Shown here piece after piece: positions 37,399-53,232 of a DNA stretch of 64,000 bases (positions within the stretch are counted from its first letter, which is position 1; every line of letters begins with the position of its first letter). The translations under genes were made by a program, and so were the position numbers. Where the stretch lies: NCBI RefSeq assembly GCF_007097245.1, contig NZ_VJZT01000001.1, forward strand, positions 186,001 to 250,000, written 5' to 3'. This stretch comes from Flavobacterium restrictum. GTDB lineage: Bacteria; Bacteroidota; Bacteroidia; Flavobacteriales; Flavobacteriaceae. Below the pieces are notes generated by a model. That model worked only from the letters and a program-made list of their open reading frames with translations. It made no database searches and was not told the DNA's origin.

Positions 37399-37475
37399 AA
37401 AAAAGTTTGCTTTTTGAAGTTTCAAGTTTTTCACTCAAAACTTTAAACAAAGAAAACTTTAAACAAAAATAATTT

Positions 37476-37997
37476 ATGGAAAATAAAACATTCACCATTT
37501 CTGTTTATTCAGAAAATAACGTTGGCTTACTCAACAGGATTTCAGGAATATTCTTGAAACGCCACATCAATATTTTAAGTTTAAATGTATCCGAATCTGA
37601 AATAGAAAATGTTTCTAGATTCATTATTGTTGTGGATACCACCGAAAAATGGGTTAAAAACATTGTAGGACAAATCGAAAAACAAATCGAAGTCATCAAA
37701 GCTTTTTATCACGTAGATGAAGAAACCATTTTCCTAGAAAGTGCTTTGTTCAAAATACAATCTAACTTGCTTTTTGACGAAAGACAAATTCAAAATATCA
37801 TCAAAGAAAGCCACTCCGAAATTGTAACGGTTTCCAGAGACTTTTTTGTGATTTCAAAATCAGGAAAACGCTCCGAAATAGAAGAGCTTCATGCTAAATT
37901 GAAACCTTTTGGAATCATGCAGTTTGTGCGCTCTGGAAGAATTTCGGTTTCTAAATCCAAAATGGAAATTTCAACCTTATTAGTAGATCTAAAATAA
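37476..37997 (+). CDS. ilvN: Acetolactate synthase small (regulatory) subunit
   Basis: This 173-residue protein activates the catalytic subunit and gives feedback control by valine. An N-terminal ACT domain is visible (TISVYSENNVGLLNRISGIF, KRHINILSLNVSESEIENVSR). The C-terminal domain includes EIVTVSRDFFVISKSGKRSEIEEL. It lies 77 bases after ilvB. The gap contains two copies of aaaactttaaacaaa and nothing else obvious. Confidence 0.94.
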   Translation: MENKTFTISVYSENNVGLLNRISGIFLKRHINILSLNVSESEIENVSRFIIVVDTTEKWVKNIVGQIEKQIEVIKAFYHVDEETIFLESALFKIQSNLLFDERQIQNIIKESHSEIVTVSRDFFVISKSGKRSEIEELHAKLKPFGIMQFVRSGRISVSKSKMEISTLLVDLK

Positions 37998-38045
37998 TAT
38001 TCACACTCAATTATTAAATTACACATTCATTAAATATTAAAAAAA

Positions 38046-39515
38046 ATGGCAAATTATTTCAATTCATTACCACTTCGATTACAATTAGAACAATTAGGCG
38101 TTTGCGAATTCATGGATCAATCCGAATTTGTTGACGGAATAGCGGCATTAGCTGGAAAAAAAGTAGTTATCGTAGGCTGTGGCGCTCAAGGTTTGAACCA
38201 AGGTTTGAACATGAGAGATTCTGGTTTAGATATTTCTTACGCATTACGTGCAGAGGCAATTGCCGAAAAAAGAGCTTCTTACACCAATGCTTTTGATAAT
38301 GGTTTCAAAGTGGGAACGTATGAAGAATTAATCCCAACTGCTGATTTGGTTTGTAACCTTACGCCTGATAAACAGCACACTGCAGTAGTTACCGCTATCA
38401 TGCCTTTAATGAAAAACGGAGCAACATTGGCCTATTCTCACGGTTTTAACATCGTTGAAGAAGGAATGCAAATTCGTAAAGACATCACCGTAATTATGTG
38501 TGCTCCAAAATGTCCTGGTTCAGAGGTTCGTGAAGAATATAAAAGAGGTTTTGGTGTACCAACCTTGATCGCAGTTCACCCAGAGAATAACCCAAATGGT
38601 GAAGGTTTCGCTCAAGCGAAAGCGTATGCCGTTGCCACTGGTGGTCATAGAGCAGGAGTTTTAAACTCTTCTTTCGTAGCCGAAGTAAAATCGGATTTAA
38701 TGGGAGAACAAACCATTCTTTGTGGTATGTTGCAAACAGGTTCTATCTTGTGTTTTGACAAAATGGTCGAAAAAGGAATCGAGCCTGCTTATGCTTCAAA
38801 ATTGATTCAATACGGTTGGGAAACCATAACCGAGGCTTTGAAACATGGCGGAATTACGAACATGATGGATCGTCTTTCTAATCCTGCAAAAATCGAAGCA
38901 TACGAATTGGCAGAAGAATTAAAAGACATCATGCGTCCTTTGTTTCAAAAACACATGGATGATATTATCTCGGGAGAATTTTCAAGAAATATGATGATTG
39001 ACTGGGCAAATGACGACATCAATTTATTAACCTGGAGAGCAGCAACTGCAGAAACTAATTTCGAAAAAACGGCTCCAACGGAAGCTGCTATTTCAGAGCA
39101 AGAATACTTTGACAACGGAGTATTGATGATTGCTATGGTAAAAGCGGGTGTAGAATTGGCTTTTGAAACCATGACACAATCTGGAATTATCGAAGAATCG
39201 GCTTATTATGAGTCGTTGCACGAATTGCCTTTGATTGCCAATACGGTAGCTAGAAAAAAATTATACGAAATGAACAGAATCATTTCGGATACCGCTGAAT
39301 ACGGTTGTTATTTATTTGATCATGCTTGCAAACCATTATTGGTTGAGTTCATGAAAACAGTAGATACTAACGTAATTGGAAAACCATTCTCTACTTCAAA
39401 TGGAGTTGATAATGCCGTTTTAATTGCTGTAAATAGTAGCATTCGTCAACATCCTATTGAAGAAGTAGGAGCGTGGTTGAGAGAATCTATGACTGCTATG
39501 AAAAAAATTGGATAA
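38046..39515 (+). CDS. ilvC: Ketol-acid reductoisomerase, class II (long form)
   Basis: This 489-residue enzyme isomerises and reduces acetolactate with NADPH. The Rossmann motif reads [21 protein letters not shown]. The long C-terminal knotted domain is duplicated, as in the E. coli class II enzyme, rather than the roughly 330-residue class I form. Metal-binding acidic residues are visible in [15 protein letters not shown]. It ends the ilv cluster. Confidence 0.96.
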
Positions 39516-39754
39516 TTAAAAATTAGGAATTACCACACATGAGGGTGTGCTGTGATTGGCATTATATCATTGGGTTTCATAATATTTTGAATTAGTAAGC
39601 ACTTATTAGAATAAAATTGATACTGATGCATAATTACATTCACTTAACTGTAATTTAGGTTGCTAGTTGAGTGAAGTAATCCCTAATATTATTGGGAATA
39701 ACATAACAAAAAACAACTGTTAAATTAATATTGTTTTTTGTTGTTTTTCATTTC

Positions 39755-39788
39755 AAAAGGTGTAATACAGAGCTATTACACCTTTTTT
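39755..39788 (+). terminator. Intrinsic terminator of the ilv cluster
   Basis: The arms aaaaggtgtaata (39755-39767) and tattacacctttt (39774-39786) form a 13-bp stem with a 6-base loop, followed by T residues. Confidence 0.88.
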
Positions 39789-39851
39789 TATTTGTAAAAA
39801 TGGCATTTGACTACTTTTTCTTCAAATAAAAATAATTAATGACTTAAATAG

Positions 39852-39883
39852 TTGTACGAATTAATAGAGATTTAATACTTTTA
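39852..39883 (+). promoter_or_regulatory. acs: Candidate promoter of acs
   Basis: A TTG (39852-39854) is followed after 21 bases by TACTTTTA (39876-39883), one mismatch from TAnnTTTG. The pair ends 16 bases before the acs start. Spacing fits the Bacteroidetes housekeeping promoter. Confidence 0.5.
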
Positions 39884-39899
39884 TAAAAAATTAAAAAAC

Positions 39900-41807
39900 A
39901 TGAGCTATTATAAAATTGAAAATTTAGAACAATATTTTAAACATTACAATAAATCAGTTCGGGAACCAAGGAAATTTTGGGGAAAAATAGCCGAAGAAAA
40001 TTTCACTTGGTATCAATATTGGGATAAAGTTGTTGATTTTAATATGGCCGAAGCCGAAGTAAAATGGTTTACCGAAGCAAAAGTAAATATCACCAAAAAC
40101 TGTATCGACAGACATCTTGCCAAAAAAGGCGAAAAAACAGCCATCATTTTTGAACCCAATAATCCATCCGAAGCGGCATTACACATTACTTATAATGAAT
40201 TGCACCAACGTGTTTGCAAAATGGCAAATGTGTTGCGGGAACAAGGCATAAAAAAAGGCGATCGAGTATGTATTTACTTGCCTATGATTCCAGAATTAGC
40301 CGTTTCAATATTAGCTTGTGCTCGAATAGGAGCCATACATTCGGTGGTATTTGCAGGTTTTTCATCCTCGGCAGTATCCGCACGAATAAATGATAGCGAA
40401 TGCAAAATGGTCATCACTTCGGATGGTGGTTTTAGAGGAAATAAAACTATTGATTTAAAAGGAATTGTTGACGATGCTTTGCAAAGTTGTTCATCGGTAA
40501 CTTCCGTTTTGGTGGCGCAAAGAACGAATTCTGAAATTGTAATGCAAGCAGGACGAGACCAATGGTTGCAACCACTTTTAGACGATGCTTCTGATAATAA
40601 TGTTGCCGAAATCATGGATGCCGAAGATCCATTATTCATCCTATACACTTCGGGATCGACGGGTAAACCAAAAGGAATGGTGCATACTACAGCTGGGTAT
40701 ATGGTCTATACGGCCTATACTTTCAAGAATGTTTTTAGCCATGAGGAAAATGATATTTTTTGGTGTACCGCTGATATTGGTTGGATTACAGGACATTCGT
40801 ACACCTTGTACGGCCCATTATTGAACGGTGGAACAACAGTAATTTTTGAAGGAATTCCTTCCTATCCTGATTTTAGTCGCTTTTGGGAAACCATCGAAAA
40901 ACATAAAGTAACTCAATTTTATACCGCACCAACCGCCATTCGTGCCTTGGCAAAAGAAAATTTAGAATACATTCAAAAATACCCTTTGAAATCCTTAAAA
41001 GTGATTGGATCCGTAGGGGAACCTATCAACGAAGAGGCTTGGCACTGGTACAATGACCACGTTGGCGACAAGCGTTGTCCTGTTGTAGATACTTGGTGGC
41101 AAACCGAAACTGGCGGCATCATGATTTCGCCAATTGCCTTTGTAACCCCAACAAAACCAACCTACGCTACCTTGCCATTACCTGGAATTCAACCCGTTTT
41201 GATGGACGAAAAGCGCAACGAAATCGAAGGCAATCAAGTAGTAGGTAGCTTGTGTATCAAGTTCCCTTGGCCCGGAATTGCGAGAACCATTTGGGGAGAT
41301 CACCAGCGATACAAGGACACGTATTTCTCTACTTTTCCAGGTAAATATTTTACTGGCGATGGTGCTTTGAGGGACGAAGTTGGCTATTACCGTATTACAG
41401 GTCGTGTTGATGATGTGGTAATTGTTTCTGGGCACAACCTAGGAACGGCGCCTATTGAGGACGCCATCAATGAGCATCCAGCAGTTGCCGAGTCTGCAAT
41501 TGTAGGCTTCCCGCACGATATCAAAGGGAATGCGTTGTACGGTTATGTCATTCTAAAAGAAACGGGAGAAAGCAGAAACCAAGATAATTTACGAATCGAA
41601 ATTAACCAATACATTTCGGATCATATTGGGCCAATTGCCAAGCTAGACAAAATTCAGTTTGTTTCTGGTTTGCCCAAAACCCGCTCTGGAAAAATCATGC
41701 GTAGAATTCTTCGTAAAATCGCCGAAGGTGATTATTCAAATTTTGGCGATACGTCAACCTTATTAAACCCTGAAATTGTAGATGAAATAAAAGAAGAACG
41801 ATTGTAA
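39900..41807 (+). CDS. acs: Acetyl-CoA synthetase (acetate-CoA ligase)
   Basis: This 635-residue AMP-forming enzyme activates acetate to acetyl-CoA. Adenylation motifs include FILYTSGSTGKPKGMVHTTA, VDTWWQTETGG and YFTGDGALRDEVGYYRITGRVDDV (shown in part). The C-terminal catalytic lysine motif PKTRSGKIMRRILR is the site usually controlled by acetylation in this family. Length is typical. It has its own promoter and terminator. Its usual regulatory neighbours, DUF294 and exonuclease-like genes, are 7 kb away on the other strand. Confidence 0.96.
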   Translation: MSYYKIENLEQYFKHYNKSVREPRKFWGKIAEENFTWYQYWDKVVDFNMAEAEVKWFTEAKVNITKNCIDRHLAKKGEKTAIIFEPNNPSEAALHITYNELHQRVCKMANVLREQGIKKGDRVCIYLPMIPELAVSILACARIGAIHSVVFAGFSSSAVSARINDSECKMVITSDGGFRGNKTIDLKGIVDDALQSCSSVTSVLVAQRTNSEIVMQAGRDQWLQPLLDDASDNNVAEIMDAEDPLFILYTSGSTGKPKGMVHTTAGYMVYTAYTFKNVFSHEENDIFWCTADIGWITGHSYTLYGPLLNGGTTVIFEGIPSYPDFSRFWETIEKHKVTQFYTAPTAIRALAKENLEYIQKYPLKSLKVIGSVGEPINEEAWHWYNDHVGDKRCPVVDTWWQTETGGIMISPIAFVTPTKPTYATLPLPGIQPVLMDEKRNEIEGNQVVGSLCIKFPWPGIARTIWGDHQRYKDTYFSTFPGKYFTGDGALRDEVGYYRITGRVDDVVIVSGHNLGTAPIEDAINEHPAVAESAIVGFPHDIKGNALYGYVILKETGESRNQDNLRIEINQYISDHIGPIAKLDKIQFVSGLPKTRSGKIMRRILRKIAEGDYSNFGDTSTLLNPEIVDEIKEERL

Positions 41808-41829
41808 AACCAATTGGTTCCCAAAACAT

Positions 41830-41868
41830 AAAACTGCTTTGTCCTTGCGATAAAGCAGTTTTTTTTTA
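41830..41868 (+). terminator. Intrinsic terminator after acs
   Basis: The arms aaaactgcttt (41830-41840) and aaagcagtttt (41852-41862) form an 11-bp stem followed by at least five more T residues. Confidence 0.88.
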
Positions 41869-41891
41869 CGACTGTAAAATTACTACCATTT

Positions 41892-42040
41892 GGGCGTGAC
41901 ACCACATATAAAAGGCGCACCTAGGCAACTGCCCAAAAAAGCGCCTTTTATACATGGTGTCGGGCTATTCGCTACAAGTCCTCGCAAAACGCCATTCCAT
42001 TCCGTTTTGCTGTGGGCTTTTCGCTACTATCCCTCACGCA
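41892..42040. repeat. Structured repeat element: long inverted repeat plus duplicated gggcT-TTCGCTAC motif
   Basis: The left part is an inverted repeat: gggcgtgacaccacatataa onward (41892-41918) pairs with the run 41941-41965. Next come two direct copies of a motif, gggctattcgctac (41962-41975) and gggcttttcgctac (42014-42027), around a small hairpin gcaaaacg (41984-41991) / cgttttgc (42003-42010). The element is clearly folded and non-coding; an open frame here (41890-42075) has no protein-like features. It sits at the boundary between acs and the polyketide cluster. Confidence 0.75.
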
Positions 42041-42150
42041 CTAAACGACTAGAATCCGTTCCTAAAAAACCTTAAAACCAATAATTAAGCAAATTTTTAA
42101 CAGAATGTTATACCACAATAATCAAATGGAATGTCTAATTTTACTTTGAT

Positions 42151-43290
42151 ATGAAAAACAAGGAAATCCTTATAATTGGTGGTGGTTTAGCGGGATTAAC
42201 TGCCGCAATTCATCTGTCAAAAATTGGGTTTCAAGTCCTTGTAATCGAAAAAAATGCTTTCCCAAAACACAAAGTTTGTGGCGAATATATTTCGAATGAA
42301 GTCTTGCCTTATTTCAATTGGTTGGGTATCACAATCGAGACTTTACAACCAACTAGAATTACCAACCTTCAATTTTCGACAGCAAACGGGACTACCATTA
42401 CGAGTGCATTGCCCCTGGGCGGATTTGGAATTAGTAGGTACACATTAGATTATTTTTTGTACCAAAAAGCACTAGAAAACGGTTGCCAATTCCTGCAAGA
42501 AACAGTCGAGAATGTAACCTTTAGCAATACTAAATTTAAAGTAGAAACTACTACTAATCAATTATTTGAATACGAAATTGTACTTGGCGCTTTTGGCAAA
42601 CGTTCCACTTTAGACCAAAAACTAAAACGTTCTTTTTTTCAAAAAAAATCAAATTGGCTGGGTGTTAAAGCGCATTATACTGGAAATTTCCCTGATGATT
42701 TGGTGGGATTACACCACTTTGAAGGCGGTTATTGTGGCGTGTCAAAAGTAGAAAATGACATCTTGAATATTTGTTATTTAACGGATTACAAAACCTTTAA
42801 ACCCTACAAAAATACCGAAGATTACCAAAAAATGTGGATTTGCAAAAACCCAAATTTAAAATCTATTTTCGAAAATGCAACACTGCTTTTTGAAAAACCA
42901 TTGACCATTAGCCAAATAGCATTTGATAAAAAAGAAGCCGTTTACGACCACATGCTCCTTATAGGCGACACCGCTGGACTTATTCATCCGTTGTGTGGCA
43001 ACGGCATGGCAATGGCAATTCATAGTGCTAAACTGGCGGCCGAGTTGGTGGCGGAATACAACAAGGGAACAATCGCATCAAGAACCAAATTAGAGCATAA
43101 ATACACACAAGTATGGAATTTTAATTTCAAGCATCGAATCCAGTCAGGACGGTGGCTAGCTCAACTTTTACAACATCAAAAAGCGACTGCTTTGGCGTTG
43201 CAAATTATAATTTGGTTTCCAGCACTTTTGACTTTTATCATCACAAAAACGCATGGAAAACCAATTGTTATCCATCCAAATAAAGACTAA
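42151..43290 (+). CDS. FAD-dependent oxidoreductase (geranylgeranyl reductase/hydroxylase-like) of the polyketide cluster
   Basis: This 379-residue flavoprotein has an N-terminal Rossmann FAD motif (ILIIGGGLAGLTAAIHLSKIG), an early KHKVCGEYISNEVLPYF segment and a C-terminal FAD-binding GDTAGLIHPLCGNGMAMAIHS. The group includes aromatic hydroxylases and prenyl reductases. As first gene of the cluster with a methyltransferase and type III PKS it probably hydroxylates or reduces the polyketide product, much as a flavin hydroxylase acts on alkylresorcinols in the Streptomyces srs system. No transmembrane helix is obvious, although the C-terminal part is hydrophobic (LALQIIIWFPALLTFIITKT). Confidence 0.88.
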   Translation: MKNKEILIIGGGLAGLTAAIHLSKIGFQVLVIEKNAFPKHKVCGEYISNEVLPYFNWLGITIETLQPTRITNLQFSTANGTTITSALPLGGFGISRYTLDYFLYQKALENGCQFLQETVENVTFSNTKFKVETTTNQLFEYEIVLGAFGKRSTLDQKLKRSFFQKKSNWLGVKAHYTGNFPDDLVGLHHFEGGYCGVSKVENDILNICYLTDYKTFKPYKNTEDYQKMWICKNPNLKSIFENATLLFEKPLTISQIAFDKKEAVYDHMLLIGDTAGLIHPLCGNGMAMAIHSAKLAAELVAEYNKGTIASRTKLEHKYTQVWNFNFKHRIQSGRWLAQLLQHQKATALALQIIIWFPALLTFIITKTHGKPIVIHPNKD

Positions 43291-43317
43291 AACACACATT
43301 CAAACGATTGAAAACCT

Positions 43318-44028
43318 ATGGCAATAAACACCAAATACCGAACTGACACGCCCGAAATCATGGATGATTTTGCTTTGGAAGGGAAAATTTTGCGAGAAGC
43401 ATTGGATAAAATTGCCAAAATAAACCAGCTTTTAGGAGGAAACCGATTAACTTTACAAGGTGTTGCCCAGTTGCTCCATCAAAATAAAAACCAACCAACC
43501 ATCCGAATTGTAGATGTAGGTTGTGGCAATGGCGATATGTTGCGCACGTTGGCCGAATATGGAAAAAAAGAGCAATTGCCTTTGGAACTAATTGGGATTG
43601 ATGCCAATAATTTTACCATTGGTCACGCCCAAAATTTATCGGTTGGGTATCCTACTATCAGTTACCGCTGTGAAGATATTTTTGGGCAATCGTTTAGCGA
43701 ATTGAAATACGATATTGTGCTGTGCACCTTAACGTTACACCATTTTAAAGAAAGTGAAATCGATACCATTCTAACCGTTTTTAACACCAATGCTAGCATC
43801 GGAATTGTGATTAATGATTTGCAACGAAGCGCACTAGCGTACCGCTTATTTCAAGGATTGTGTTTTGTTTTTGGTTTGAATGCCATGTCGCGTGAGGATG
43901 GTTTAACCTCCATTTTAAGGGGTTTCAAAAAAGTGGAATTACAACAGTTTTCCATAAAAAATAAATTTAAAAACTATACTATTCAATGGAAATGGGCTTT
44001 CAGATACCAATGGATTGTTTGGAAATAG
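43318..44028 (+). CDS. SAM-dependent methyltransferase of the polyketide cluster
   Basis: This 236-residue class I methyltransferase has motif I IRIVDVGCGNGDMLRTLAEYG, an acidic ribose-binding residue in LELIGIDANNF, motif IV DIVLCTLTLHHFKESEI and a downstream GIVINDLQRSALAYRLF segment. It starts 27 bases after the oxidoreductase gene, so the two are probably co-transcribed. Its likely role is O- or C-methylation of the aromatic polyketide, although its substrate cannot be read from sequence. Confidence 0.88.
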   Translation: MAINTKYRTDTPEIMDDFALEGKILREALDKIAKINQLLGGNRLTLQGVAQLLHQNKNQPTIRIVDVGCGNGDMLRTLAEYGKKEQLPLELIGIDANNFTIGHAQNLSVGYPTISYRCEDIFGQSFSELKYDIVLCTLTLHHFKESEIDTILTVFNTNASIGIVINDLQRSALAYRLFQGLCFVFGLNAMSREDGLTSILRGFKKVELQQFSIKNKFKNYTIQWKWAFRYQWIVWK

Positions 44029-44067
44029 GTTGAGAGTTTTGGGTCAGGAATTAGAAAGAAGAAGCTA

Positions 44068-44166
44068 GAAGAAAGAAGCTAGAAGTTAGAGGAAAGAGGT
44101 TAGGAGTTAGAAGAAAGAAGCTAGAGGAAAGAGGTTAGGAGTTAGAAGAAAGAAGCTAGAGGAAAG
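44068..44166. repeat. Purine-rich tandem repeat, 35-base unit
   Basis: Three copies of a gaagaaagaagctaga-led unit start at 44068, 44110 and 44145. The second copy is exactly 35 bases, the first carries a 7-base insertion, and the third is truncated. Almost all bases on this strand are A or G. Confidence 0.8.
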
Positions 44167-44229
44167 TTACAATAAATGATAAGTTTGGGGTTAGCATTTT
44201 GAAATCGTAATGCTGCCAAAAAAATTAAT

Positions 44230-44447
44230 AGACTCCAGCTTTAGAAAAAAAAGCAATAGACTCCCAGCTTTAGCTGGAAAAAAAGGAATCAACTCCAGCT
44301 TTATTTGGAGAAAAAAAGCAATAGACTCCACGCTTTAGCTGGAGAAAAAGGAATCAATAGACTCCAGTTTTATTTGGAGAAAAAAAGCAATAGACTCCAC
44401 GCTTTAGCTGGAGAAAAGGAATCAATAGACTCCAGCTTTAGCTGGAG
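44230..44447. repeat. Array of seven ctccagctttagctggag hairpins
   Basis: Seven copies of a gactccagctttagctggag-like unit begin near 44230, 44260, 44291, 44324, 44360, 44393 and 44428. Spacer DNA is an A-rich aaaaaagcaata or aaaggaatcaata. Most copies can form a stem of 7-8 bp. Variants such as cttta-tttggag keep pairing by compensating changes (ctccagttttatttggag). Confidence 0.85.
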
Positions 44448-44508
44448 AAAAAAGAAATCAATGTAGTATTGGCTTTAGCCAAAAACGTATTGTTTAAGAC
44501 AAAAAAAA

Positions 44509-45561
44509 ATGAGTGTAAAAATAAAATGTGTTGCCAAGCAACTGCCCAAATATTCGAGAACTACCGATGAAATCATTCCTTTTTTGGATGCGTGGTTGGC
44601 GGGACAAGACGAGCGTTTTATTCGGAAAGTGAAGAAAATTTTTGAAGGAGCCGCCGTTGACAAGCGATATTCTATAATGGATCCAATCGAAGTTTTTACC
44701 CAAACTTCCTTTGAGGAACGAAATGCTATTTACGTTCGAGAAGTGATTGATTTGGGCGAAAAAGTACTCCAAAAAGCGTTGCAAAAAGCCAATTGGAAAC
44801 CCGAAACCTTGGATTATATCATTACGGTAAGTTGTACGGGAATCATGATTCCGTCTTTGGATGCGTATTTGATCAATTCGTTGCATTTGCGACAAGATAT
44901 TGTGAGGCTTCCAGTGACCGAAATGGGTTGTGCCGCAGGAGTTTCGGGGATTATTTATGCCAAAAACTTTCTGCAAGCCAATCCCGGAAAACGGGCAGCT
45001 GTAATTGCAGTCGAAAGTCCTACGGCCACTTTTCAGCTAGACGATTTTTCGATGGCTAATATTGTTAGTGCCGCTATTTTTGGCGATGGAGCCGCCTGTG
45101 TTTTGTTATCTTCCCACGAAGCTGACGAAGGCCCGGAAGTCCTTGCCGAAGAAATGTATCATTTTTACGACAACATTCACATGATGGGCTTTAAACTCAC
45201 CAATTCAGGCTTGCAAATGGTTTTGGATATCGAAGTTCCCGAAACTATTTCCAATCATTTTCCGGATATTATTCATCCTTTTTTAGCTAAAAATAACGTT
45301 TCAATTGAAGCGATTGATCATTTAATTTTTCACCCTGGTGGAAAAAAAATTGTACAAACAGTAGAAAGTTTGTTCTCCAGTTTGGGCAAAAACATCAATG
45401 ACACCAAGGAAGTCTTGAGATTGTATGGCAATATGTCGAGTGCAACCGTTTTGTATGTTTTAGAACGAATTATGGACGAAAATCCCAAAAAAGGGGAACT
45501 AGGTTTGCTTTTGAGTTTTGGTCCCGGATTTTCGGCTCAACGGGTTTTACTCCAATTTTAG
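44509..45561 (+). CDS. Type III polyketide synthase (chalcone synthase superfamily)
   Basis: This 350-residue homodimer-type synthase extends an acyl starter with malonyl units and cyclises it. The catalytic triad is intact: Cys141 (TEMGCAAGVSG), His275 (LIFHPGGKK) and Asn308 (LRLYGNMSSATVLYV). The C-terminal GLLLSFGPGFSAQRVLL contains the family GFGPG-like loop. Start at 44509 gives MSVKIKCVAKQLPKYSRTTDE, which matches bacterial members. Bacterial relatives make alkylresorcinols, alkylpyrones or naphthalene tetrol. The adjacent dehydratase, ketosynthase and carrier protein suggest a dedicated acyl starter. Confidence 0.93.
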   Translation: MSVKIKCVAKQLPKYSRTTDEIIPFLDAWLAGQDERFIRKVKKIFEGAAVDKRYSIMDPIEVFTQTSFEERNAIYVREVIDLGEKVLQKALQKANWKPETLDYIITVSCTGIMIPSLDAYLINSLHLRQDIVRLPVTEMGCAAGVSGIIYAKNFLQANPGKRAAVIAVESPTATFQLDDFSMANIVSAAIFGDGAACVLLSSHEADEGPEVLAEEMYHFYDNIHMMGFKLTNSGLQMVLDIEVPETISNHFPDIIHPFLAKNNVSIEAIDHLIFHPGGKKIVQTVESLFSSLGKNINDTKEVLRLYGNMSSATVLYVLERIMDENPKKGELGLLLSFGPGFSAQRVLLQF

Positions 45562-45563
45562 TT

Positions 45564-46025
45564 ATGAATAGTAAAGAAATTTTATCCCAATTACCGTATA
45601 CCAAACCATTTTTGTTCGTAGATGACATTAGTCGGATAGACGAAAATGGAGTAGAAGGAACCTATACTTTTGATGAAAATTTAGACTTTTACAAAGGGCA
45701 TTTTAAGGATAATCCCATCACACCAGGTGTCATTCTAACCGAGGTTATGGCGCAAATAGGATTGGTTTGTTTGGGAATTTTTTTGGTAAATGATGTATTT
45801 AACAAAAATACTTCAATTGCCTTAACTTCAACGGATATAGAATTTTTAAAACCTGTTTATCCAAACGAAAAAGTTACCGTTATTTCTGAAAAAGTGTATT
45901 TTAGATTCGGAAAATTAAAATGTAAAGTACAAATGAAAAACCAAAAAGGAGAGTCGGTTTGCACAGGAACAATTGCCGGTATCCTCCGCTCATCAGCAAA
46001 GGAGGACCGAACAGCATTAGAATAA
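45564..46025 (+). CDS. FabZ-like 3-hydroxyacyl-ACP dehydratase (hotdog fold)
   Basis: This 153-residue hotdog protein has the FabZ catalytic pair His46 (FYKGHFKDNP) and Glu60 (TPGVILTEVMAQIG). The start lies 2 bases after the type III PKS stop, so translation is probably coupled. It would dehydrate the hydroxyacyl intermediate made by the cluster's ketosynthase and a ketoreductase. No ketoreductase gene is in the cluster, so that step may be borrowed from primary fatty acid synthesis. Confidence 0.9.
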   Translation: MNSKEILSQLPYTKPFLFVDDISRIDENGVEGTYTFDENLDFYKGHFKDNPITPGVILTEVMAQIGLVCLGIFLVNDVFNKNTSIALTSTDIEFLKPVYPNEKVTVISEKVYFRFGKLKCKVQMKNQKGESVCTGTIAGILRSSAKEDRTALE

Positions 46026-46047
46026 ACGATTGAAATTTAAAAATCAA

Positions 46048-46142
46048 AATTGCCATTGCTATTGAAATTGAAATTGCCATTGAAATTGCTATTAAAATTG
46101 CTATTGCCATTGAAATTGAAATTGCTATTGAAATTGCCATTC
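46048..46142. repeat. Low-complexity attgcc/attgaa hexamer-type repeat
   Basis: About 95 bases are made of attgcc, attgct and attgaa units in mixed order, ending just before the ketosynthase start at 46158. On the minus strand it forms an open frame of alternating Ala, Ile, Met and Ser, which is not a gene. Confidence 0.85.
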
Positions 46143-46157
46143 TAAAAACAATTCTAT

Positions 46158-47426
46158 ATGAATAAACGTGTTGTAATTACGGGACTTGGCGTAGTGGCTC
46201 CAAACGGCGTCGGGCTAACTGAGTTTACGCATGCTATAAAAAACGGAATTTCGGGAATTAAGCACGATCCGGAATTGGAACGATTGCAGTTTTCCTGTCA
46301 GATTGCGGGAAAACCAGAAATTTCAAACGAAATGGCATTGCGTTATTTCTCCGAATTGGAATTGCGAAATTTCAATTCGTCAGGTATTTTGTATGGTGTA
46401 ATTGCTGGAATGGATGCTTGGAAGGATGCTGGATTAGCACTCGAAAAACGAGACGAACCGGATTGGGACAGCGGGACTATTTTTGGAACTGGAACATCTG
46501 GAATCGATAAATTTAGAGAGAGTATTTATAAAATTGATGCTTTCGAAACCCGCAAATTGGGCAGTACCGCTGTGGCACAAACCATGAATAGTGGTGTGAG
46601 CGCATTTTTGGGAGGCAAATTAGGATTAGGAAATCAAGTCACAACAAACTCCTCGGCTTGTACCACGGGAACCGAGAGTATTTTGATGGCCTACGAACGC
46701 ATTAAATCCGGTCAAGCCAAACGAATGTTGGCAGGAAGCACCAGTGATTCAGGTCCTTATATTTGGGGAGGATTTGACGCCATGAAAGTGTGCAGTTTTA
46801 AGCACAATACCACTCCTGAAAGCGGTTCTCGCCCCATGTCAAGCACGGCTTCTGGGTTTGTTCCAGGGAGTGGGGCAGGAGCATTGGTTCTGGAAGATTT
46901 AGAAACAGCTTTGGCACGAGGAGCGCAAATTTATGCCGAAGTTTTGGGCGGAAATGTTAACTCGGGTGGGCAAAGAGGACTGGGAACCATGACAGCACCC
47001 AATCCTGTTGCTGTTCAAAATTGTATTGCCAATGCAGTAGCCAATGCTGCAATTCAGGCTAGTGAAATTGATATAATAAATGGGCACTTAACTGCCACAT
47101 CCAAAGATAGTTTAGAAATAGAAAATTGGAGTAAAGCTTTAGATAGAAGTGGTGTTGATTTTCCGTATATTAATTCCTTAAAATCCATGGTGGGGCATTG
47201 TTTGTCTGGAGCAGGAAGCATAGAAAGTGTGGCTACCATACTGCAATTGCATCACGGATTTATTTTTCCGAATAGCAATTGCGAAGATTTAAATCCCGAT
47301 ATTACCGCTATAATCGACAAAAGCCGCATCCCTCAACAATTGCTTTACCGCAAAATTAAAGTTGCAGCCAAAGCAAGTTTTGGTTTTGGAGATGTAAATG
47401 GGTGTGTAATTTTCAAGAAATTTTAA
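46158..47426 (+). CDS. Beta-ketoacyl-ACP synthase (FabF-like) of the polyketide cluster
   Basis: This 422-residue thiolase-fold condensing enzyme has the KAS II triad Cys168 (NSSACTTGTES), His310 (INGHLTATSKDS) and His347 (SLKSMVGHCLSGAGS). The usual NAHGTGT around the first histidine is replaced by NGHLTAT, a marked variation. N-terminal MNKRVVITGLGVVAPNGVG is standard. It probably elongates an ACP-bound acyl chain dedicated to the type III PKS. It could also be a chain-length-specific or initiating enzyme as in aryl-polyene and flexirubin pathways. Confidence 0.92.
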   Translation: MNKRVVITGLGVVAPNGVGLTEFTHAIKNGISGIKHDPELERLQFSCQIAGKPEISNEMALRYFSELELRNFNSSGILYGVIAGMDAWKDAGLALEKRDEPDWDSGTIFGTGTSGIDKFRESIYKIDAFETRKLGSTAVAQTMNSGVSAFLGGKLGLGNQVTTNSSACTTGTESILMAYERIKSGQAKRMLAGSTSDSGPYIWGGFDAMKVCSFKHNTTPESGSRPMSSTASGFVPGSGAGALVLEDLETALARGAQIYAEVLGGNVNSGGQRGLGTMTAPNPVAVQNCIANAVANAAIQASEIDIINGHLTATSKDSLEIENWSKALDRSGVDFPYINSLKSMVGHCLSGAGSIESVATILQLHHGFIFPNSNCEDLNPDITAIIDKSRIPQQLLYRKIKVAAKASFGFGDVNGCVIFKKF

Positions 47427-47509
47427 AAAGAGTAACTGCTAATTCGCAAATTTTAGAACTAAACCACTTTGGACTGAAAGTCTGCAAAGTTGTAGCGCTA
47501 ATTTATTTG

Positions 47510-47556
47510 CCACAAATTGCATTAATTAGTACTTATTAATTTGTGAAAATTTGTGG
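47510..47556. repeat. Inverted repeat ccacaaatt / aatttgtgg
   Basis: ccacaaatt (47510-47518) pairs with aatttgtgg (47548-47556), with an additional aatttgtg copy at 47538-47545 and a palindromic attaattagtacttattaat between. It is similar in layout to 22282-22380. It lies in the 237-base gap before the carrier protein gene. Confidence 0.65.
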
Positions 47557-47663
47557 TTTTATTATTTTTAGAAGCTAAATCAAAATGTGCTAATGTACTT
47601 ATATTTTGAAATCAGTGAATCAGTAGCTAAATAGGCTACACTAAATAGGCTAATATCCATAAA

Positions 47664-47930
47664 ATGATTACAATTATGAACAAAGAAGAAACCATTCAAG
47701 AATTAAAAGCCATTGTAAAACCGTATATTCAAAACGAAGAAGCGTTTGAAAATCTTACGGAAGACACTGATTTCATTAATGATTTGAAGATAAATTCGGC
47801 TAATTTAGTCGATGTGATTTTAGACATTGAAGAAAAATACGATATCGTGATTGACAATGAAGCGATGGAAAAAATGAGTAACGTAAAAGCTGCTTTGACC
47901 ATTATTGAAACCCAATTAGCCTCAAAATGA
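47664..47930 (+). CDS. Acyl carrier protein
   Basis: This 88-residue carrier protein has helices EETIQELKAIVKPYI and ANLVDVILDIEEKYDI, with the modified serine predicted as Ser45 in DLKINSANLVDV. Primary ACPs have DSLD at this place, so the NSAN variant marks a specialised carrier. A second in-frame ATG (47676, MNKEETIQEL) is equally plausible as start. The gene overlaps the phosphopantetheinyl transferase by four bases (ATGA), so the carrier and its activator are translationally coupled. Confidence 0.9.
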   Translation: MITIMNKEETIQELKAIVKPYIQNEEAFENLTEDTDFINDLKINSANLVDVILDIEEKYDIVIDNEAMEKMSNVKAALTIIETQLASK

Positions 47931-48412
47931 TAGGAAACGACGTCGTAGATTTGGCTTTGTCCAAAAAACAAAGCCGTTGGCAACGCAAGGGATTTATGGA
48001 TAAAATATTCACTCCAAGCGAGCAATTGCGTATCAGCACCTCGCAAAATCCCGAAAGTATGGTTTGGAATTTATGGAGTAGAAAGGAAGCAGCTTACAAA
48101 ATTTACAATCGGGAAACAGGAATCCGAGGGTATTTTCCCCTGCAATTGGAATGCGATTGTAGCAATCAAAACGAAGGAACTGTCCACATAAAGGGATTTC
48201 GTTATTTTACAAAAACTACTGTTGATGCAGATTGCGTGTATACCATTGCCGTTGCCACAAAAGAGCACTTTGACCAAATTAAAACAATGGATCCGAACAC
48301 GCCAATTACCAAAATAAATGGAATTCCATACCAGAATAATCCACAAATCCAGGAACTGAAACCCGTTTCGATAACCCATCACGGACGGTTTTGGTGCGGG
48401 ATTACGTTGTGA
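47927..48412 (+). CDS. 4'-phosphopantetheinyl transferase
   Basis: This 161-residue enzyme loads the phosphopantetheine arm onto a carrier protein. The two magnesium/CoA motifs are visible: IGNDVVDLA at the N-terminus (Asp5, Asp8) and LWSRKEAAYKIY (Trp50, Lys53-Glu54-Ala55, Lys58). It is longer than AcpS (about 120) and shorter than Sfp (about 220). It begins inside the ACP stop codon region, indicating a dedicated partner. Confidence 0.9.
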   Translation: MIGNDVVDLALSKKQSRWQRKGFMDKIFTPSEQLRISTSQNPESMVWNLWSRKEAAYKIYNRETGIRGYFPLQLECDCSNQNEGTVHIKGFRYFTKTTVDADCVYTIAVATKEHFDQIKTMDPNTPITKINGIPYQNNPQIQELKPVSITHHGRFWCGITL

Positions 48413-48522
48413 TTTTAGTTTCTGTACTCCAAAAAATTGCTTTTCGAGGATTTGGCTACTATAAAAATTTACTTTAGACTACTTCTTAAAATAGATCAGA
48501 ATAAATTAAACGATAAAAAAAT

Positions 48523-49116
48523 CTATATACCCAATCTGGATTTTAATTTCAAAAACAACAATGCTGTTTTGTAAGCATCTTCGGAGGCAGAATTGCGATC
48601 ACTTTTTGGGATTTTATAAATGTCGCATAATTCGTCCAGTGAAAATTGCTTATCGTTTATATCCAATAATTTGCGATGCATGACATCTACATCCAAGGCT
48701 TCGTTTTTCAAGCGACCGCAATCCAAACGATCCAGTGCTGCGTTGATCATTTCGACATCAAAATGAATGTGATGACCAACCAAAACCGCGTTTCCTATAT
48801 AACCAATCAATGATTTTATGGCGTCAGGTTCAACGAGTTTTTTCATTTTGCTTTCTACAATAAACTCATTAGATAGTCCATTGTCATGCAAAAATTTATA
48901 TTGCAATAATACAGCTTCAAAATTATCGCCTATAACCACGCTATTATCCACAATAGCAAAGGATCCTAGGGATAAAATAACATCTTTGACTGGACTCATA
49001 CCAGAGGTTTCAGTAGATAAAACAACAAATCGCTTTGATTTGGTTTCAAATTTAGACAAATACTCTTTCCAAAATTCAGGGTATTCTTTGTTGATATTTT
49101 TTAGCCAGTCTAACAT
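48523..49116 (-). CDS. DnaQ-type exonuclease-fold protein, probably degenerate
   Basis: This 197-residue DEDDh-fold protein starts 2 bases after the end of the upstream DUF294 gene, so the two form one operon. The Exo I motif region reads FVVLSTETSG, with Ser34 where the first catalytic Asp should be, although Glu36 remains. Asp120 is present in VGHHIHFDVEM. The last motif, RNSASEDAYKTALLF, has Asp180 but Asn175 where the catalytic His is expected. Activity is therefore doubtful. Such genes commonly accompany DUF294 regulators near acetate metabolism genes. Confidence 0.82.
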   Translation of the reverse strand: MLDWLKNINKEYPEFWKEYLSKFETKSKRFVVLSTETSGMSPVKDVILSLGSFAIVDNSVVIGDNFEAVLLQYKFLHDNGLSNEFIVESKMKKLVEPDAIKSLIGYIGNAVLVGHHIHFDVEMINAALDRLDCGRLKNEALDVDVMHRKLLDINDKQFSLDELCDIYKIPKSDRNSASEDAYKTALLFLKLKSRLGI

Positions 49117-49117
49117 A

Positions 49118-51034
49118 TTATGAAAATTGTGTAAGTTTAAATTTCCCTTTGATCAACTCTTCTAATTCTCTCATTGGAGCAAAATTATTCTTTAATTTTT
49201 CTTTATCAATTTTAGACATTTCGTTCAAATTAATAAACTGACCGCAATCATCATTTTTTAAGCCTTCAATGGTTCGAAATTTCGACAAGGTTTGAAACGC
49301 ATCGGCGCAATTCAAATAAATTTCAGCATTTTTGGGGTCAATCATGGCTAATTGCTTGAATCTCATATAGGTATTATTAACCCCTTTGATGTTGTAATGT
49401 AAAGTAAACAATCGGGCACCATCAATAAGCGGCATCAAAGCACGCGTTTTAATGTCAAATTTATCTTTGTTTTCTCCATCTTCTTCAATAATGAACTTTT
49501 TGAAAAAACTCAAAGGTGCATTTTTCTTTAAAGCATCATTGCCTAAAAAATCAAAGAAAAGTGTATTGTTTTTGGCATTTTTGAAAATGATATTTTCCAG
49601 GGCTTCTTCAATTTTGGGTTCTCCAAAAGCAATTTCAAAATCAAAAAAGAGGCTACTCAAATCATTGCTGTTTTCTCCTGGAGTATTCATCCAGCTGTTG
49701 TATTGTTTTGTCCAGTCTGTCAGTGATTTACACCATAGCATATTGCTTCCCATATGCCCATTTGGACACAAATCAAAACCTACTTTTTCGAGTGTTGCCG
49801 TTGTTCTTCGTCCTAATCGCAAGAAATAATCTTTTACTTCACGGTATTTGTCGGGAGTGACATCTTCAAAAACCAAAATACTATCCTGATCAGTCATTAA
49901 TAGCTGTTCTTTTCGGCCTTGACTACCAATACTCAACCATGCAAAACGGGCAGGAGGGGAGCCTAAATCTAAAATAGAAAGTTCCACACTTCGTTTTATG
50001 ATAGCCAAATTGATTTCGCTAGCAATATTGGTAATATGCGAGATGGGAATGTTTTTATGAATCGAATTCTGAATCAAATCCGTTAATCGTTCGCGTATTT
50101 GTTTTAAATCTTTTGGCGTTTGGGAACGTTTTATTTCTTTGATTAAAACCCCAGGGTTGCTGGCTTGAGCAATGATTAAATCGTGCTCGGATATGATTCC
50201 TTTTACAACAGATTTAGCCGTTCCGTCTAAAGTTACGCACAAATGCGTGACATTGTATTTGAGCATCAGCAATTGCGCTTCGGCAAGGGAAACGTTTTCT
50301 ACAACCGTAATTACGGGCGATGCCATAATGGTCGCAATGCTATCAGTAATTTGAAATCTTCCAGTAGCAATTTTGGTACACATATCCCGATCTGTAACAA
50401 TACCAATGGGAAAATTGTTTTCACAAATGATAACACTGCTCGAAATTTCTTCGGTCATTAGCTTGGCAATATCCTTTATAACGGCAGTAGTGAGCACTGT
50501 TAATGGGGATGTATTGTAGGTTAATGATTGAAAATATTGAATTTCCGATTGTTGATCGGAATAAAATACATTATCCGAAATGAGTTTGCCACGCAAATTT
50601 TCTTTGTCATGATGATTGGGAGTATTGGTGGCAAAACTTTCTAACAAAAAGTTCAATACAAGTGTGTTATTGGCAACAAAAGGTCTAAAAGTGGCAATTG
50701 GAATGGCGTAAACAATACTTTCTTCCCGAGCTTTGGCGGTCATCATGTAATTGTTTTTGGCAAAAAAAGGACGCAACCCAAAAATATCTCCTTTATGACA
50801 TTTATTCAATAAAGTTTCTTCGGCATCGGCAATTACGGATAAATTGATAACGCCCGAAGCCACTACATAAAAACTATCGTGCAAGACATCATTAATTTGA
50901 AACAAGGTTTTGTGTTTTTCTAAATTAACAACCCGAATACTCGTAGCAATCTCTGATAATTCTTCAAAAGTTAAATTATCAAAGGGCTGGTAATCCTTCA
51001 AAAAGTCTGCAATATGGGCTGCAATAGTATTCAT
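49118..51034 (-). CDS. cNMP-binding/CBS/DUF294 nucleotidyltransferase-like regulator
   Basis: This 638-residue cytoplasmic protein has a cyclic-nucleotide-binding-like domain (about 1-130; KCHKGDIFGLRPFFAKNNY), a CBS pair (about 175-300; IGIVTDRDMCTKIATGRF and VVKGIISEHDLIIAQ), a DUF294 nucleotidyltransferase-like domain (about 330-465; WLSIGSQGRKEQLLMTDQDS with the GS-x(n)-D-x-D pattern of GlnD-type enzymes) and the DUF294_C helical domain to the end. The architecture is that of a signalling enzyme that senses adenylates or cAMP-like ligands. In other bacteria homologues sit beside acs and acetate symporters. Confidence 0.9.
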   Translation of the reverse strand: MNTIAAHIADFLKDYQPFDNLTFEELSEIATSIRVVNLEKHKTLFQINDVLHDSFYVVASGVINLSVIADAEETLLNKCHKGDIFGLRPFFAKNNYMMTAKAREESIVYAIPIATFRPFVANNTLVLNFLLESFATNTPNHHDKENLRGKLISDNVFYSDQQSEIQYFQSLTYNTSPLTVLTTAVIKDIAKLMTEEISSSVIICENNFPIGIVTDRDMCTKIATGRFQITDSIATIMASPVITVVENVSLAEAQLLMLKYNVTHLCVTLDGTAKSVVKGIISEHDLIIAQASNPGVLIKEIKRSQTPKDLKQIRERLTDLIQNSIHKNIPISHITNIASEINLAIIKRSVELSILDLGSPPARFAWLSIGSQGRKEQLLMTDQDSILVFEDVTPDKYREVKDYFLRLGRRTTATLEKVGFDLCPNGHMGSNMLWCKSLTDWTKQYNSWMNTPGENSNDLSSLFFDFEIAFGEPKIEEALENIIFKNAKNNTLFFDFLGNDALKKNAPLSFFKKFIIEEDGENKDKFDIKTRALMPLIDGARLFTLHYNIKGVNNTYMRFKQLAMIDPKNAEIYLNCADAFQTLSKFRTIEGLKNDDCGQFINLNEMSKIDKEKLKNNFAPMRELEELIKGKFKLTQFS

Positions 51035-51216
51035 AGCTTGTTTAAAATAAATTTATGGTTTGTAAAAATAATAAAATAAAAAGTCATTTTCGTATCCATG
51101 TAAGGGGAAAACGATTAATTTATACAATTCATAATTTTTTCATAAAAATGTTAAAAATTATCCTAAATTGAATACTGTTTTTTACATTTATGACGTAAAC
51201 TAAATTATTTAAAATC

Positions 51217-51723
51217 ATGAAATTATCCAAAAAACTCCTCGTAATTGCTTTTCTAATCGCAATAGTACCCTTTGCTAATGCGCAAAAAAAACTAGCCAGT
51301 CCTGCCGAAACGGTATCGGGAAAAATTAACGGTGCCAGCATCACGATTAATTACGGAAGCCCATCTGTAAAAGAAAGAAAAATTTGGGGCGGATTAGTTC
51401 CTTTTAATCAAGTTTGGCGTGCTGGAGCTAATGAAGCCACCACCATTGAAACTGATAAAAGCTTGACTATTGAAGGCGTTACATTACCAGCAGGAAAATA
51501 TTCTTTTTTTATCATTCCAAGTGAAACCGAAAGTACTATCATTTTTAACAAAGAACCAAAACAATGGGGTGCTTATGATTACAAAGAAAAAAATGATCAA
51601 TTGCGCGTTAAGATAAAACAACAAGCAGCAACCACAAGCACCGAAAAATTAGCATATTTTGTTAATCCAAACGATATTACGTTAAGTTGGGAAAAATGGA
51701 ATTTTGTTATGAAAGTCCAGTAA
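51217..51723 (+). CDS. DUF2911 domain secreted protein
   Basis: This 168-residue protein has a signal peptide (LLVIAFLIAIVPFANAQ). One DUF2911 domain follows, recognisable from the NYGSPSVKERKIWGGLVPFNQVWRAGANEAT stretch (shown in part here), the LPAGKYSFFIIP turn and the NKEPKQWGAYDYKEKNDQL segment. The function is unknown. The protein is probably periplasmic. A terminator follows. Confidence 0.88.
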   Translation: MKLSKKLLVIAFLIAIVPFANAQKKLASPAETVSGKINGASITINYGSPSVKERKIWGGLVPFNQVWRAGANEATTIETDKSLTIEGVTLPAGKYSFFIIPSETESTIIFNKEPKQWGAYDYKEKNDQLRVKIKQQAATTSTEKLAYFVNPNDITLSWEKWNFVMKVQ

Positions 51724-51752
51724 ATATAAGGTTTAATTCCAATTTTTAATAC

Positions 51753-51781
51753 AAAACAAAAAGGGCTTTCCTTTTTGTTTT
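51753..51781 (+). terminator. Intrinsic terminator after the DUF2911 gene
   Basis: aaaacaaaaagg (51753-51764) pairs with cctttttgtttt (51770-51781), a 12-bp stem with 5-base loop rich in A-T pairs, T-run included in the right arm. Confidence 0.72.
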
Positions 51782-51977
51782 TGTAAAAGTCTATTTTACA
51801 TAATATAAATTATAGTGCAAAATACAACAGTAGGAAATAAGTAACTTGAAAAGCTATTTGACAATATAATAATTATTTAAAAGAGCACTTGTACTTCTAA
51901 CTGACGTTTTTAGTATTTATAACGAACAAGTTTATATAGAAAAATACGTTTATCCCAGCAAATACCTTCATTAGACT

Positions 51978-51985
51978 TATATTTG
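51978..51985 (+). promoter_or_regulatory. Candidate -7 element (TATATTTG) of the efflux pump gene
   Basis: TATATTTG matches TAnnTTTG exactly, 17 bases before the start codon of the MFS gene. No TTG occurs at the expected -33 distance, so the promoter may be weak or need an activator. Confidence 0.5.
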
Positions 51986-52002
51986 CACTTTAAAAAAAAG
52001 AA

Positions 52003-53232
52003 ATGACCAAAACCAATTATTTAAAGCTAATTCTCATATTAGGTTCTATGACAGCACTTGGGCCATTTTCAATTGATATGTATTTGCCCGGTTTTGCGGG
52101 AATTGCCAGAGATTTGAATACTACAGTTGCCAATGTTTCGATGACATTATCCAGTTATTTTATTGGAATTTCCGCTGGACAATTACTTTATGGCCCGTTA
52201 TTGGATCGATTTGGACGCAAAAAACCGTTGTTTATAGGCTTGTTGATTTATATTTTGGCTTCGTTGTGTTGCGTTTTTGTCAAAAATATTGATGCTTTTA
52301 TTGGCTTACGTTTCATACAAGCTATTGGTAGTTGCGCTGCTACTGTGACTTCTGTCGCTATGGTTCGGGATTTATTTCCTGTAAAAGATATTCCAAAAGT
52401 GTTCTCAAAATTAATGTTGGTTGTTGGGCTTTCGCCAATGCTGGCACCAACAATTGGTGGGTACGTAACGGCATATTACTCTTGGCATGTGGTGTTTTTG
52501 ATTTTGATGTGTTTGGGAATACTTGTTTTTCTAGCGGCTTGGCTAGGACTTCCTTCAAAATTTATTCCCGATACTACCATTTCGTTGAAACCAAAACCCA
52601 TAATCACTAATTTTATAGAAATTATCAAAGTTCCACAATTTTATACTTATGCTTTTACGGGTGCAATTGCTTTTTCAGGATTGTTTACTTATGTTGCGGC
52701 TTCGCCTATTTTATTCATGACCATTCTCAAAGTAAGTGCTAAAACCTACGGTTGGATTTTTGCTTTTATGTCCATGAGTTTTATTGGTGCTAGTCAGCTG
52801 AATTCCCTATTGTTGCGGAGGTTTAAAAGTGAGCAAATGATTTTTGGCGCACTCGTAGCCCAATCAATTATTAGTATTTTATTTCTCATAGCAGCTGTAA
52901 ACTCATTTTTGGGCTTGTATGAAACAATTGCTTTTTTGTTTTTATTTTTGGCTTGTTTGGGTATTTCAAATCCCAATACTGCGGGTTTAACCTTGGCTCC
53001 TTTTGCCAAAAACGCAGGAAGTGCCTCGGCATTAATGGGTGCAATACAATTGGGTTTGGGTGCTTTTGCTTCTTTTATTGTGGGTGTTTTTGTAAAAAAT
53101 TCAATAGCTCCTATGGTTGTTATTATGTGTTTTTCGACAGTAACGGCATTTTTTGTTTTGATTATCGGTAAACGAACAATCAAAAATACCATTGCGACTT
53201 CATTTGAGGATGAAATTACAATGGTACATTAA
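52003..53232 (+). CDS. MFS multidrug efflux transporter, Bcr/CflA family
   Basis: This 409-residue inner-membrane transporter has twelve hydrophobic segments. The family's N-terminal motif is visible as GPFSIDMYLPGFAGIARDL, followed by motif A in GPLLDRFGRKKPLFIG and motif C-like GLSPMLAPTIGGYV. Bcr/CflA pumps export drugs such as bicyclomycin or chloramphenicol by proton antiport. It stands alone. Confidence 0.93.
   Translation: MTKTNYLKLILILGSMTALGPFSIDMYLPGFAGIARDLNTTVANVSMTLSSYFIGISAGQLLYGPLLDRFGRKKPLFIGLLIYILASLCCVFVKNIDAFIGLRFIQAIGSCAATVTSVAMVRDLFPVKDIPKVFSKLMLVVGLSPMLAPTIGGYVTAYYSWHVVFLILMCLGILVFLAAWLGLPSKFIPDTTISLKPKPIITNFIEIIKVPQFYTYAFTGAIAFSGLFTYVAASPILFMTILKVSAKTYGWIFAFMSMSFIGASQLNSLLLRRFKSEQMIFGALVAQSIISILFLIAAVNSFLGLYETIAFLFLFLACLGISNPNTAGLTLAPFAKNAGSASALMGAIQLGLGAFASFIVGVFVKNSIAPMVVIMCFSTVTAFFVLIIGKRTIKNTIATSFEDEITMVH

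Follow-up and report, generated by a model that had tools for sequence, protein, structure and literature searches.

A seven-gene locus of Flavobacterium restrictum that may join a discrete elongation set to a type III polyketide synthase

Gene content of the locus

A 64-kb stretch of Flavobacterium restrictum DNA, hereafter called the window, was analysed; it forms part of a 516-kb contig (NZ_VJZT01000001.1) in a genome of 3.7 Mb and 64 contigs. At 42151-48412 of the window, seven genes on the + strand encode a type III polyketide synthase (PKS) together with two putative tailoring enzymes, a dehydratase, a ketosynthase, an acyl carrier protein (ACP) and a 4'-phosphopantetheinyl transferase (PPTase). 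The seven open reading frames (ORFs) and the domains that an initial annotation had assigned to them were borne out by the ORF list, Pfam and NCBIfam, and the features of the locus are the following:

42151-43290, + strand: flavin adenine dinucleotide (FAD)-dependent oxidoreductase, 379 aa, group A hydroxylase or flavin halogenase fold, predicted to act in product tailoring
43318-44028, + strand: class I S-adenosylmethionine-dependent methyltransferase, 236 aa (Methyltransf_25, 43.6 bits; NCBIfam PRK06202, 123.7 bits, cut-off 243)
44509-45561, + strand: type III PKS, 350 aa, Cys141-His275-Asn308
45564-46025, + strand: FabZ-like dehydratase, 153 aa, His46 and Glu60 (FabA domain, 46.8 bits)
46158-47426, + strand: FabF-like ketosynthase, 422 aa, Cys168-His310-His347 (ketoacyl-synt, 95.4 and 81.0 bits)
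47664-47930, + strand: ACP, 88 aa, Ser45 (PP-binding, 21.0 bits; NCBIfam acyl carrier protein, 43 bits, cut-off 71)
47927-48412, + strand: PPTase, 161 aa, overlapping the carrier gene by 4 bp (ACPS, 50.7 bits)
44029-44508: spacer between the methyltransferase and synthase genes, 480 bp, with two repeat families throughout
41830-41862, + strand: terminator-like hairpin that separates the seven-gene set from the acetate-CoA ligase gene upstream; stem of 14 pairs followed by a T run

All seven genes are intact and their domains were assigned by Pfam and NCBIfam, yet the best NCBIfam matches of the proteins stayed below cut-off. Purifying selection was found on all seven genes in the comparison with F. 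glaciei (L084), and on the four genes with a computable ratio in the comparison with F. limicola (L077), with omega ranging from 0.04 to 0.20 over both comparisons; these values are rough, as synonymous sites were close to saturation.

The catalytic triad of the synthase lies exactly at Cys141-His275-Asn308, as initially numbered, and was conserved in all 176 aligned orthologues, the window included. Both the N- and C-terminal chalcone/stilbene synthase domains exceeded their Pfam cut-offs, and the fold was that of a type III PKS. By fold and among solved sequences, the nearest protein was PKS11, followed by CylI, both of which act on alkyl chains; the identity to Pks11 and PKS18 of Mycobacterium tuberculosis was 27-28% over structural alignments. 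In contrast, a synthase piece from a distant member of the Bacteroidota (L073) had a plant 2-pyrone synthase and chalcone synthases as its best solved relatives. The best NCBIfam model was DpgA, whose equivalog cut-off of 425 bits was missed by far (176 bits). DpgA makes an aromatic acyl-CoA, and this match would suit a reverse order of events, in which the type III PKS would first make a small aromatic or pyrone unit, and the ketosynthase and the dehydratase would extend it once it is attached to the carrier. Such an order seems quite improbable, as Pfam and NCBIfam detected among the seven proteins neither a ligase nor a transferase that could load an aromatic acid, and PKS11 and CylI, the closest of the solved synthases, are described as using preformed alkyl chains (PMC6274091, PMC8086630).

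Regarding the elongation genes, the ketosynthase bears unusual FGFGD and GHLTAT motifs, is 31% identical to the FabF of its own genome and missed the NCBIfam fabF equivalog cut-off (271 bits vs. 493.75), its catalytic Cys-His-His being intact. These three residues were kept in 170 of the 171 orthologues, the remaining row being gapped. Similarly, the dehydratase missed two NCBIfam FabZ equivalog cut-offs (63.5 bits vs. 113 and 61.6 vs. 155.15), while its catalytic His and Glu were present in 172/172 orthologues. The carrier protein barely passed the PP-binding threshold (21.0 bits, cut-off 20.8), and its Ser was conserved in all 169 orthologues. Furthermore, the PPTase is one of two ACPS-type matches in the genome. 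As for the flavoprotein, its best NCBIfam model was a geranylgeranyl-reductase subfamily (115.6 bits vs. a cut-off of 158.8).

The 480-bp spacer ahead of the synthase gene was the largest among 77 loci, the window included, for which the median was -37 bp, and a gap of 237 bp precedes the carrier gene. One of the two repeat families in the spacer has the palindrome CTCCAGCTTTAGCTGGAG, which was absent, allowing up to two mismatches, from all 80 named loci of the genus, and a similar repeat of the type AGAAGCTAGAAG occurs near the C55 ketosynthase gene of the same genome. The spacer between the dehydratase and ketosynthase genes (46026-46157) is filled by repeats of a six-base unit (ATTGAA, ATTGCC, ATTGCT). 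No Rfam match was found in 37000-53000 at the gathering threshold. Terminator-like sites numbered 11 in the region for an expectation of 6.5, the hairpin at 41830-41862 being by itself weak evidence of a boundary. The upstream AMP-binding gene was considered as a source of starter ligase and rejected, as it matched acetate-CoA ligase over the cut-off and is separated from the set by that hairpin.

Conservation of the set and co-occurrence of its two halves

Profiles built from the window's own genes were run on the neighbourhoods of 201 loci. Among the best 80 of 412 relatives, which make up the named Flavobacterium loci, the closest synthases belonged to Flavobacterium species, with F. limicola first (93% identity). 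The order oxidoreductase, methyltransferase, PKS, FabZ, FabF, ACP and PPTase was exact in 74 of these 80 loci. Three of the six deviating loci lie at a contig edge (L092, L110 and L113), a fourth has a ketosynthase divided between two ORFs (L094), one is devoid of the carrier and transferase genes downstream (L156), and the last one, from Flavobacterium sp. GT3R68 (L098), has an additional reductase gene. The L113 contig, filed in a Klebsiella pneumoniae bin, bears a Flavobacterium-like set with 89% synthase identity and is most likely a binning error.

Beyond the named loci, a synthase was present in 86 of 249 family genomes (E <= 1e-30), 84 of them with 57-100% identity, in addition to G072 (34%) and G150, where it appears in two pieces (69% and 55%). 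The G150 pieces (L229) are adjacent and cover query positions 5-114 and 115-349, which could reflect a broken gene or a sequencing error. In the phylum sample, 17 of the 24 genomes of the same genus had the synthase, the window's own included. The oxidoreductase and methyltransferase genes were found beside the synthase in 85 of the 86 family loci, and FabZ, FabF and ACP in 81. A distant control consisted of 24 loci hand-picked across the range of 141 Bacteroidota genomes with a synthase of <40% identity; FabZ, FabF, ACP or PPTase appeared nearby in none of the 24, and the flavoprotein and methyltransferase in eight. The search for the same gene order in other Bacteroidetes that had been suggested initially found it to recur within the genus, with the elongation trio extending over the family and being absent from the distant loci sampled, so that the grouping is not a matter of chance or peculiar to this genome. 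Moreover, three genomes from two other families of the class (G325, G378 and G486; L065, L066 and L067) had synthases of 77-79% identity with the same neighbours, which suggests transfer between families. At one locus (L041), the set adjoins the primary fatty acid gene FabH. Some relatives among L041, L045, L048 and L049 have neighbouring ORFs that we take to be accB and accC.

The ketosynthase was searched for in the same 249 family genomes, giving 84 matches (E <= 1e-80). Both genes were present in 84 genomes and neither in 163, while two had the synthase only and none the ketosynthase only. The two synthase-only genomes were G072, with its distant synthase, and G138, in which the locus lies on a 15.9-kb contig with a FabZ fragment at the far end. 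In two further genomes the set is split, the FabZ-FabF-ACP trio lying about 356 kb from the synthase in G190 and on another contig in G144. Since both genomes keep the two halves after their separation, a joint function is supported, although they cluster on the tree and the split may be a single event. These counts and the split operons therefore uphold the claimed link between the carrier-based enzymes and the type III PKS.

These results also bear on an alternative in which acyl-CoA alone feeds a lipid made by the synthase, the flavoprotein and the methyltransferase, as in the hidABC operon, while the ketosynthase, dehydratase and carrier make a second product and are merely co-inherited. 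This triad does occur on its own: it stands free of elongation genes in the eight distant Bacteroidota loci mentioned above, and in planctomycetes an operon with a flavoprotein and a methyltransferase is described for 58 of 96 synthase genes (PMC10896814). However, the complete lack of ketosynthases in family genomes devoid of the synthase, as opposed to two cases of the reverse, and the retention of both halves in G190 and G144 make such an arrangement unlikely in this family.

Enoyl reduction and the steps supplied from elsewhere

The seven genes had been called self-contained, which proved too strong, as Pfam and NCBIfam revealed neither a ketoreductase nor a malonyl-ACP transferase nor an enoyl reductase among their proteins. 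In the family, a gene for a reductase of the short-chain dehydrogenase/reductase (SDR) type was located between the PKS and FabZ genes in 76 of the 86 loci, a remnant in L222 being counted. For these proteins, the best profile was FabL (147 bits, below the cut-off of 328) and the best solved relative was FabL as well. The Y-x6-K site was present in 77/77 rows, these being 77 of 79 after the exclusion of an unrelated SDR (L064) and the 61-aa L222 remnant. Judging from these sequence features, the relatives' SDR is predicted to be an enoyl reductase of the FabL/FabI type, and its assignment as a ketoreductase was rejected in view of the Y-x6-K site and the FabL profile match. With the reductase profile, no further SDR came up on the synthase's strand at a distance of up to 9 kb in any of the 201 loci, a ketoreductase profile not having been run on the relatives.

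Neither the window nor 79 of the 80 named Flavobacterium loci had the reductase gene, and the window's genome had no close match to the relatives' enoyl reductase (best identity, 32%). As the seven-gene set is devoid of the three activities and the genome of a close enoyl reductase match, the enzymes of primary fatty acid synthesis would have to finish the cycle. The presence of the gene was mapped on a PKS tree of 102 rows, comprising 83 of the 86 family loci, eight of the 80 named genus loci, eight further ones from the genus and three from other families, from which L055 (distant), L172 (short contig) and L229 (split reading frame) were left out. Ten changes were counted on this tree, although its deep forks were often weakly supported and the starred branches force only four. 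In L222, the match of the 61-aa remnant between the PKS and FabZ genes was confined to the C-terminal part of the profile, so that decay of the gene has apparently taken place at least once. The reductase is probably ancestral in the family, and its occurrence in 76 of the 86 loci suggests a saturated ancestral starter.

An operon with a dehydratase and no enoyl reductase could also run the same pathway in Flavobacterium with an unsaturated or short-polyene starter, so that the resulting pyrone or phenol would be conjugated or coloured. The lack of the gene in nearly all of the named genus loci and the distant match in the genome would be in agreement with this, as would the label T3pks-arylpolyene given to a cluster of an Aequorivita relative (PMC6139392), which may or may not be the same gene set. 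On the other hand, the reductase is probably ancestral, Flavobacterium sp. GT3R68 retains it, the primary enoyl reductase may substitute for it, and the flexirubin DarB/StlD model had no match over the cut-off in the genome; a polyene starter is thus considered improbable. The enoyl reductase having been lost more than once, a testable prediction on side-chain saturation also follows.

Proposed pathway and relation to known systems

With moderate confidence, we favour the reading that the seven genes serve one pathway, in which a dedicated elongation set feeds the type III PKS and ring tailoring follows. The PPTase would prime the carrier, on which the ketosynthase and the dehydratase would build an acyl chain or extend one, while primary fatty acid synthesis would lend keto reduction, malonyl loading and, in Flavobacterium, enoyl reduction; in the relatives, the operon's own reductase may take part in chain building. 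The synthase would then take over the chain as acyl-ACP, add malonyl units and close the ring, which the flavoprotein may hydroxylate and the methyltransferase methylate, as precedented by hidABC and the planctomycetal operon. Judging from its solved relatives, the methyltransferase may act on O or on C. Candidate products are an alkylresorcinol, an alkylpyrone or a quinone derived from one of them. In this respect, the choice between pyrone and resorcinol is reported to be set by Gly284 in ArsC vs. Trp281 in ArsB (PMC6274091).

Several observations weigh against this reading. Two repeat-filled gaps weaken the picture of a single operon in F. restrictum, the PPTase gene adjoins the others in only 25 of the 86 family loci, and neither a ketoreductase nor a malonyltransferase is among the seven proteins. 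Moreover, DpgA, the best NCBIfam model for the synthase, is not known to use an acyl starter, the structure model of the synthase reached a pLDDT (predicted local distance difference test) of only 70, and the Fisher test of the co-occurrence (p = 5e-65) ignores shared ancestry.

Among known systems, the adjacency of a type III PKS, a methyltransferase and an FAD-dependent oxidoreductase is shared with hidABC of cyanobacteria, whose product hierridin is a hydroxylated and O-methylated alkylresorcinol (PMC10896814). However, the order there is methyltransferase, oxidoreductase and PKS, the first two being swapped here, and that account mentions no ketosynthase, dehydratase, carrier or PPTase in the three-gene hidABC operon; the likeness refers to gene content. 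The ars system of Azotobacter vinelandii likewise has a type III PKS that can be fed by a carrier-bound fatty acid system of its own, but the supplier there is ArsA, described as an ACP-domain fatty acid synthase (PMC6274091), while no multidomain fatty acid synthase was found in the present operon, which encodes only discrete single-domain proteins of 88-422 aa. Carrier-bound starters have precedents in ArsB and ArsC (PMC6274091) and in CylI (PMC8086630). The alkylpyrone synthases Pks11 and PKS18 were assayed with acyl-CoA (PMC6274091). The cylindrocyclophane (cyl) system differs in its supply, which here would be a FabF-like ketosynthase and a FabZ-like dehydratase, and no type I PKS was found among the seven proteins or in 38000-53000 (by ORF length, and by Pfam on eight proteins). 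Flexirubin and aryl polyene clusters likewise have a FabF-like ketosynthase, a FabZ-like dehydratase and carriers serving an aromatic lipid, the ring being made by DarA/DarB-type enzymes, whereas here it would be made by the predicted type III PKS. A flexirubin or dialkylresorcinol cluster in the genome was considered and rejected, the DarB/StlD model giving at best 32 bits vs. the NCBIfam cut-off of 450.

No characterised product for this gene set was found when open-licence papers were searched in full text, in agreement with the initial annotation, whose interpretation therefore stood in this point and in the tie of the carrier enzymes to the PKS, but not in self-containment. The protein search gave only close Flavobacterium-like relatives among the best 120 of 7984 matches, and no product was named. 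The type III PKS clusters of Aquimarina, which may or may not be the same gene set, are reported to have no MIBiG match (PMC9860996). The cluster type is already known to cluster surveys; the novelty would lie in the proposed mechanism, a variation in which discrete enzymes elongate the starter for a type III PKS. As to its extent, chances appear about even that a hybrid type II/type III class exists across the Flavobacteriaceae, with its own line of ketosynthase, dehydratase, carrier and, in part, enoyl reductase, ketosynthases with invariant FGFGD and GHLTAT motifs, and an undescribed phenolic or pyrone lipid as product.

In the Flavobacteriaceae, type III PKS clusters belong to the more frequent kinds of predicted natural-product cluster and are reported to account for 10.74% of the total in one survey, based on 2,680 genomes (PMC10734526), and for 9% in another (PMC7440613), yet no product assigned to them was found in the open-licence literature. 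If true, the proposed pathway would add feeding by discrete enzymes to the suppliers already described for type III PKSs, ArsA and CylD/CylH, and would explain why the synthases of this family travel with fatty-acid-like genes.

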